Positions 51,305-51,724 of a stretch of 64,000 nt of DNA are shown here, in pieces. The DNA is from Anaerolineales bacterium. GTDB taxonomy: Bacteria; Chloroflexota; Anaerolineae; Anaerolineales; Villigracilaceae. The position numbers and the translations under genes are program-made. The notes beneath the pieces are model-generated. The model did not search any database. It was given only the letters and a program-made list of their open reading frames with translations, and was not told the DNA's origin. The stretch spans positions 1 through 64,000 of the forward strand of contig JAGUZU010000083.1 in NCBI GenBank assembly GCA_020060625.1, read 5' to 3'. Position 1 is the first letter of the stretch. Each line of letters starts with the position of its first letter.

Positions 51305-51333
51305 TTGACTCTTTCCCCTCTCCGTCATAAAAT
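51305..51333 (+). promoter_or_regulatory. Promoter of the trp operon
   Basis: TTGACT (51305-51310), a 17-base spacer and TAAAAT (51328-51333) give a near-consensus sigma-70 promoter. Transcription would start near 51340, just before T-box stem I. Confidence 0.75.
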
Positions 51334-51339
51334 CTCGCC

Positions 51340-51724
51340 CAACATACAACCAAAAACGCTGACGAGGACGAGTACACTTCAAAGCGATTTCCAGAGAGCC
51401 GAGCGGAAGACGGTGCAAGCGAGGCAAAAGCGCAGAAGTCGAATGGACCTCCGAGTTTCAAGGAGAAAGTCTGGTAGCCGATTAGCCACATGGTCGAGTA
51501 GCCAGAGCGAGTACCCGCGACGGGAACTGCACCCGTTACCACGCAGAGTTTCTTAGAAGGATACAACTACAGAACTACCAAACTATCCAACTAGCAAACT
51601 AAAAGAGTGACGCTGGCTTCCTTTCCTGTGTGCATCACGCAGGAATTTTTTGTTAAAACGGCGTTTAACTTGGGTGGCACCACGAGATTCCCCTCTCGTC
51701 CCAATGGACAGGAGGGGCTTTTAA
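51340..51724 (+). ncRNA. T-box leader sensing tRNA-Trp
   Basis: Stem I has the conserved AGTA (51371-51374), AGAGAG (51393-51398) and GGTGC (51412-51416) features. In the specifier loop, GAA-TGG-ACC places TGG, the Trp codon, at 51444-51446. The antiterminator is formed by TTGGG (51670-51674) with CCCAA (51700-51704) and ACGAG (51682-51686) with CTCGT (51695-51699). The seven-base bulge between them is TGGCACC, and its TGGC pairs with the GCCA of tRNA-Trp (discriminator G). The competing terminator (CCCCTC at 51690 with GAGGGG at 51712, then a U-tract) is next. Uncharged tRNA-Trp should therefore raise expression of all seven trp genes, trpS included. Confidence 0.92.

Follow-up and report, generated by a model that had tools for sequence, protein, structure and literature searches.

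In an Anaerolineales bacterium (Chloroflexota; Anaerolineae; Villigracilaceae), the genes of tryptophan biosynthesis lie in a 64,000-nucleotide stretch of assembly GCA_020060625.1 (contig JAGUZU010000083.1, positions 1 to 64,000 of the forward strand), which is called the window here and supplies all coordinates not otherwise labelled. Sequence evidence supports a tryptophan (Trp) T-box as the leader of a complete trp operon that includes trpS, a tryptophanyl-tRNA synthetase gene. The T-box itself is known in kind; what is new here is a second conserved terminator-like module, named T1, within its stem III and upstream of the canonical terminator (T2). The gene order trpE-trpS-trpGD-trpC-trpF-trpB-trpA, given in an original prediction made from the letters of the DNA, was confirmed with NCBIfam, all genes being on the plus strand:

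51839 to 53275, plus strand: trpE (TIGR00564, 557.7 bits)
53512 to 54561, plus strand: trpS (TIGR00233, 294.8 bits)
54645 to 56255, plus strand: trpGD, fused (TIGR01245 and TIGR00566)
56252 to 57112, plus strand: trpC (NF001377)
57241 to 57876, plus strand: trpF (NF002298, 202 bits, slightly below the cut-off of 215)
57937 to 59136, plus strand: trpB (TIGR00263)
59190 to 59966, plus strand: trpA (TIGR00262)

The leader upstream of trpE contains the following elements; PMC7583486 is cited here and below for an excerpted part of its text, which defines the T-loop motifs of stem I as AGAGA/UGxRA:

51305 to 51333, plus strand: sigma-70-like promoter, TTGACT, 17 nucleotides and TAAAAT (consensus scan, 10/12; alone no proof of function)
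51350 to 51706, plus strand: T-box leader, full RF00230 model (cmscan)
51393 to 51397, plus strand: AGAGA, first T-loop of the stem I apex, with its partner UGCAA at 51414-51418 (sequence; motif definition of PMC7583486)
51444 to 51446, plus strand: specifier codon UGG (Trp), within GAAUGGACC (RF00230 alignment)
51518 to 51538, plus strand: stem IIA/B element CGACGGG...CCCGUUA (RF00230 alignment)
51605 to 51609, plus strand: GAGUG, the RRRxG purine string preceding stem III (sequence; motif of PMC7583486)
51670 to 51704, plus strand: canonical antiterminator, with the bulge UGGCACC at 51675-51681 (RF00230 alignment)
51690 to 51722, plus strand: T2, the canonical terminator, CCCCUCUCGUCC/GGACAGGAGGGG (51690-51717) followed by CUUUU (fold of -18.3 kcal/mol; sequence)

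The full RF00230 model (positions 1-219) aligns to 51350-51706 with 74.1 bits and an E value of 3.7e-16, and a whole-genome search recovers the trp leader (E 4.9e-16) as one of seven T-box matches. The Rfam gathering score for this family is 93, so a default Rfam scan reports no T-box at the trp leader; five of the six remaining matches in the genome likewise fall below 93. The significant covariance match, the specifier, the fit between bulge and tRNA and the gene order together bear out the tRNA-Trp T-box that had been predicted upstream of the operon. The coordinates originally proposed for stem I, the specifier, the UGGCACC bulge and the terminator agree with the RF00230 alignment, which places UGG in stem I, and with the sequence. 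The seven-nucleotide bulge is flanked by the helices UUGGG/CCCAA and ACGAGA/UCUCGU, and antiterminator and terminator are alternative structures, UCUCGUCC (51694-51701), the 3' side of the antiterminator, being common to both. A single tRNA-Trp was found in the genome (ARAGORN was applied to the loci of 30 of 38 tRNA matches); its anticodon is CCA, its discriminator base is G and its CCA end is not encoded, and thus the mature 3' end is GCCA, complementary to the UGGC of the bulge. The promoter scan found two such sites, against 0.4 in shuffled sequences. The alternative of a leader peptide and ribosome-dependent Trp attenuation in place of a T-box was also considered and ruled out as extremely improbable, since the T-box anatomy in the RF00230 alignment is complete and none of the three plus-strand open reading frames (ORFs) of at least 20 amino acids in the leader has tandem Trp codons, each containing at most one Trp codon.

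The original prediction had missed the module inside stem III, which was recognised from a side-by-side reading of related leaders as a purine strand ending in GUGARRC, the sequence UGGC, a GC-rich hairpin and a U-run. In the window, the conserved UGGY, the hairpin and the U-run occupy 51605-51652, and the purine strand with its UGGC reads GUGACGCUGGC (51607-51617). The parts of the module are:

51607 to 51613, plus strand: GUGACGC, which may pair as the 5' strand with GCAUCAC of the T1 loop (51632-51638) in an alternative helix (pairing counts; swap test)
51610 to 51615, plus strand: lower helix of stem III, ACGCUG, with the 3' strand CGGCGU at 51659-51664 (own fold; covariation)
51614 to 51617, plus strand: UGGC in stem III, complementary to the 3' GCCA of tRNA-Trp (conservation among T1 leaders)
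51623 to 51651, plus strand: T1, a 10-base-pair hairpin, UUCCUGUGUG-CAU-CACGCAGGAA (51623-51645), and UUUUUU (51646-51651) (terminator scan; model R1)

A terminator scan of 51230-51860 picked T1 as its sole site, where shuffled sequences give 0.6 sites. A covariance model built from 22 T1 sequences (R1) gives 48.7 bits (E 9.5e-10) for the site in the window, with no other site in the genome below E 0.2.

Among relatives, R1 has matches in 275 of 400 genomes from the order. In a set of 400 genomes from the phylum it matches 44, of which 33 belong to the order, eight to other parts of the class and three lie outside the class. The last three are marginal (E 0.0076-0.008) and none is T-box-like, and a phylum-wide distribution of T1 was rejected on these grounds. 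Pattern search gave no T-box context at loci L180 and L182 and, at L181, a non-TGG match without a core. R1 has no match in ten trp-linked T-boxes that belong to other classes of the phylum, seven of which have a specifier read as UGG. T1 thus looks like an invention within the class to which the window genome belongs. To survey the order, 70 trpE loci were collected, 30 as the best of the family and 40 through a search of the order; three could not be judged (one at a contig end, two with trpE not first in the operon), and T1 is present in 59 of the 67 assessable leaders, with a weak case (L128) counted as present and a hairpin lacking a clear U-run (L139) counted as absent. Across 80 named records, a set that partly coincides with the sampled genomes, T1 precedes trpE in 71, the canonical core in 74, and trpS follows trpE in 51. 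Anaerolinea thermolimosa IMO-1 (NZ_DF967965.1), a strain available in culture, has both T1 and the canonical core.

Within these genomes T1 is tied to tryptophan, occurring, as far as the leader sequences can be read, only in Trp T-boxes wherever the specifier is readable. Of 36 T-box loci in the order, R1 matches nine, each of them with a UGG specifier; T1 as a general feature of T-boxes in the order was rejected, 27 of the 36 loci being without a match. Two of these 27, L014 and L019, also have a UGG specifier. In a separate count of hairpins with a U-run, 31 of the 36 loci were judged (five had no core by pattern) and eight were positive, all of them Trp; one locus, L013, was missed through a wrong core assignment. 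Among 38 R1 loci read individually, every one of the 34 readable specifiers is UGG, the other four being three chance matches in the window genome and one contig end. The genes downstream, where readable, are trpE, trpS or a TrpB-like gene, the last label resting on likeness. A GAATGG or GGATGG specifier pattern lies upstream in 101 of 104 T1 leaders; the remaining three are cut short, contain Ns or read AAATGG.

In these 104 leaders the module has UGGC in 97 and UGGU in seven, and the canonical bulge of the 98 that also have a core reads UGGC in 90 and UGGU in eight. The eight bases after the T1 hairpin include at least five T in 98 of the 104, and the U-run follows the hairpin without a gap, which is the arrangement of intrinsic terminators. 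A T1-like hairpin with a U-run follows UGGY in 103 of the 104 leaders, against 6.1 expected from shuffles, a figure that expresses agreement and not an independent rate, since many of the leaders were collected through R1. By these features T1 looks like an intrinsic terminator. The pairs of the hairpin contain 48 double-change cells in alignment A5, against 19.8 in shuffles, and none of 500 shuffles reaches 48; in the same alignment 75.7% of the cells are paired, in an imperfect register. (A5 has 100 rows; L126, L128, L180-L182 and second matches in L120 and L244 were excluded, and L126, L043, L119 and L121 were counted by hand. None of the pairing counts corrects for kinship among the genomes.) When measured by hand in stems of at least seven pairs, T1 arms pair at 6.66 of 7 positions with their own partners and at 4.62 with swapped ones, the stems themselves having been selected by pairing.

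The lower helix of stem III bears on the proposal that T1 is merely an elaborate stem III, in which the U-run would be incidental and termination negligible. This helix covaries as would be expected of such a stem (AGGC/GCCU in 51, AAGC/GCUU in 11, ACGC/GCGU in seven and AGAC/GUCU in two of 98 leaders), T1 sits exactly within stem III, and stem III is described as highly variable among T-boxes in the excerpted PMC7583486. Yet the U-run and UGGY are kept in sequence, T1 persists in lineages without a canonical core, and the Trp T-boxes outside the class manage without it. Further, the lower helix stops before UGG in 27 of the 98 leaders, and therefore UGGY would not be conserved for stem III alone. 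A purely structural T1 is accordingly regarded as unlikely.

A second possible pairing joins the purine strand GUGARRC to the T1 loop. In 93.6% of cells this alternative helix is paired, and three double-change cells were counted, against 0.1 in shuffles; two of them come from rows of one genus (L113 and L117, GCGA/UCGC) and one from an out-of-register row (L176). A hand reading of L175 and L176, again of one genus, has GUGGG facing CCCAC. Alignment A1, from one family, pairs GUGA/GC with GC/UCAC and contains zero double changes. Support from covariation for a GUGARRC/T1-loop helix is thus thin. In a swap test, own pairing was the better, one of 200 swaps being as good.

The strongest hint at a function of T1, as read from these leaders, is its pattern of loss. 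Eight genomes in three families retain the UGG specifier and T1 with no canonical core downstream: L043 (family f1), L233 (f14) and L116, L119, L121, L126, L333 and L338 (f15). RF00230 still matches all four of the T1-only leaders that were scanned (L043, L116, L126 and L233), at 32.5 to 77.4 bits. One more locus, L334, has an R1 match and was left uncounted, its leader not having been found by pattern. In other lineages T1 is absent and the canonical core with T2 is kept, so that all 67 assessable trpE leaders have at least one of T1 and T2, the core being altered in L115. Two observations were made beside these leaders. An Rfam cspA thermoregulator match (103.6 bits, cut-off 78) lies at L043:685-1030, just upstream of the T1-only leader, and may span coding sequence. 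The T1-only leader of L233 (G670:C148) is followed by a short ORF whose in-frame TGA lies in a C-x-x-TGA context and which we take to be perhaps a selenoprotein of the Rdx kind.

The T1-only genomes also bear on a reading of T1 as a pause hairpin, which would hold the polymerase until tRNA-Trp binds and leave the decision to the canonical switch alone. T1 lies just ahead of the decision region, is compatible with stem III and is less stable than T2, and the short decision time of transcriptional T-boxes is stressed in the excerpt of PMC7583486. Against this, a pause would have nothing to serve in the eight genomes without a canonical core, the U-run abuts the hairpin in the manner of an intrinsic terminator, and the order's T-boxes of other specificity, which face the same time limit, have no R1 match. 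T1 as a pause hairpin and nothing else is considered doubtful.

The operon downstream provides the remaining context. A second tryptophanyl-tRNA synthetase gene, 42% identical to the operon trpS, was identified by TIGR00233 on another contig (G000:C38:5171-6148), and the whole-genome search gave no RF00230 match on that contig. The charging of tRNA-Trp would thus not be under the sole control of the trp leader, and the loop envisaged in the original prediction, in which uncharged tRNA-Trp raises both supply and charging, would be less tight than described there. The genome's six remaining T-boxes lie ahead of pheS, serS, thrS, ileS, valS and leuS (ileS and leuS are partial in these loci and score under cut-offs), which leaves the trp operon as the only biosynthetic T-box target seen in the genome. 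Palindromic repeats occur at 51737-51821 between T2 and trpE, within 53276-53511 between trpE and trpS, and within 57113-57240 between trpC and trpF. Upstream of the operon and divergent from it, a 767-amino-acid ORF (48932-51235, minus strand) has no NCBIfam match at E 1e-10.

The same prediction had noted that T-boxes are best known from Firmicutes and Actinobacteria. The T-box is real; its occurrence is not unusual for the phylum, since 200 of the 201 genomes sampled in the order have an RF00230 match and T-boxes on trpE and trpB-like genes have been published for two Dehalococcoides genomes (Wels 2008, PMC2494555, as excerpted). In the family, 50 of 100 genomes have a trpE match, and at the 30 best loci trpE is followed within the 1.5 kb examined by trpS in 25, directly by trpGD in three and by a contig end in two. 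Some related leaders are elaborated elsewhere. The apical loop of stem I, between the two T-loop motifs, bears a palindromic repeat of the type GGTCGAGTA...TATCGAGACC in L041, L049, L050, L056, L057, L059 and L068, and other hairpins occupy this apex in L051, L061 and L063; the elbow-binding end of stem I seems to tolerate inserted hairpins. One of the palindromic repeats in the trpE-trpS gap of the window resembles the repeat in stem I of these relatives. The linker between stems II and III is of two types in L040-L069, CAGAGTTTCTTAG... and GGGTATAA...GTACC, which alternate among close relatives of one genus.

As a whole, the locus is very probably a transcription-attenuating tRNA-Trp T-box over the trp operon and thereby over one of the two trpS genes, with T1 as an extra module. 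By analogy with the T-box family, uncharged tRNA-Trp would pair through its CCA anticodon with the specifier and through its GCCA end with the bulge, holding the antiterminator so that transcription continues. Charged tRNA-Trp would be unable to pair at the bulge, and T2 would form. T1 is most likely an early termination or pause checkpoint ahead of this canonical decision. When tRNA-Trp is charged, T1 could form and could stop or slow transcription ahead of the main decision. When it is uncharged, its free GCCA end may pair with the UGGC of stem III beside the GUGARRC/T1-loop helix, disfavouring T1, and the tRNA end may afterwards pass on to the canonical bulge. A more specific proposal is that Trp T-boxes of the class (Anaerolineae) meet tRNA-Trp twice, UGGY and a small antiterminator (GUGARRC and the T1 loop) being set against T1 and then the bulge against T2, with T1 able to serve alone in several lineages, whose T-boxes would then lack the T-box sequence altogether; we advance this proposal tentatively, as a possibility that falls well short of even chances.

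Several observations weigh against two successive checkpoints. T1 is weaker than T2 (means of -12.9 kcal/mol over 104 leaders and -21.1 kcal/mol for T2 in 98) and could be a pause site or simply a stiff stem III. The folded leader of the window accommodates T1 together with stem III and the terminator, and T1 need not be an alternative state. UGG adjoins the helix of stem III and, in 39 of 98 leaders, takes part in its pairing, so that its conservation may be partly structural, and covariation with the tRNA is not usable, the discriminator G of tRNA-Trp being taken as invariant. T1 is also dispensable, being absent from eight of the 67 trpE leaders (L115, L122, L123 and L135-L139) and from the two further Trp T-boxes L014 and L019. 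Finally, six of the eight T1-only genomes come from one family.

In its general plan, the leader resembles the T-boxes described by RF00230, with a stem I carrying the specifier and double T-loop landmarks, stems II and III, an antiterminator with a UGGN bulge and a terminator; it differs from them in a stem III that holds a conserved hairpin with a U-run and UGGY. A further difference concerns helix A2, whose base is given in the excerpt of PMC7583486 as a G-U wobble with a reported role in sensing the amino acid. In T1 leaders with a core, this base (51682 and 51699 in the window) opens with A in 61 and with G in 37 of 98, and thus the wobble is often replaced by A-U. The Dehalococcoides Trp T-boxes, as excerpted from Wels 2008, belong to the same phylum and share the amino acid and the kinds of target gene. 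The ten trp-linked T-boxes compared from other classes, among which the Dehalococcoides records themselves were not included, contrast with the present leaders in their lack of an R1 match. The excerpt of PMC12452182 describes tandem T-boxes on trp operons of Bacillota, which likewise place more than one terminator before trp genes; in those, each unit has its own sensor domain, whereas here one sensor domain is followed by two hairpins.

No second UGGNACC antiterminator was found in any of the 104 T1 modules. T-boxes with duplicated terminator-antiterminator elements were reportedly described by Vitreschak in 2008. Like these, as reported, the present leaders would combine one specifier domain with two terminators, T1 being terminator-like by sequence only; unlike them, T1 lies inside stem III of a single discriminator without a second antiterminator. 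A description of T1 was not found in the open-licence T-box literature searched, a scope that did not extend to the main comparative T-box papers, and prior publication is possible.

T-boxes are model RNA switches, and T1 is amenable to tests with short RNAs. If the proposal of two checkpoints is true, the same tRNA would read a second, conserved decision point, an example of how a one-off RNA switch can be tightened; a tighter switch would suit tryptophan as a costly amino acid. In the lineages that retain T1 without the textbook T-box sequence, searches based on this sequence would overlook or misinterpret the leader.
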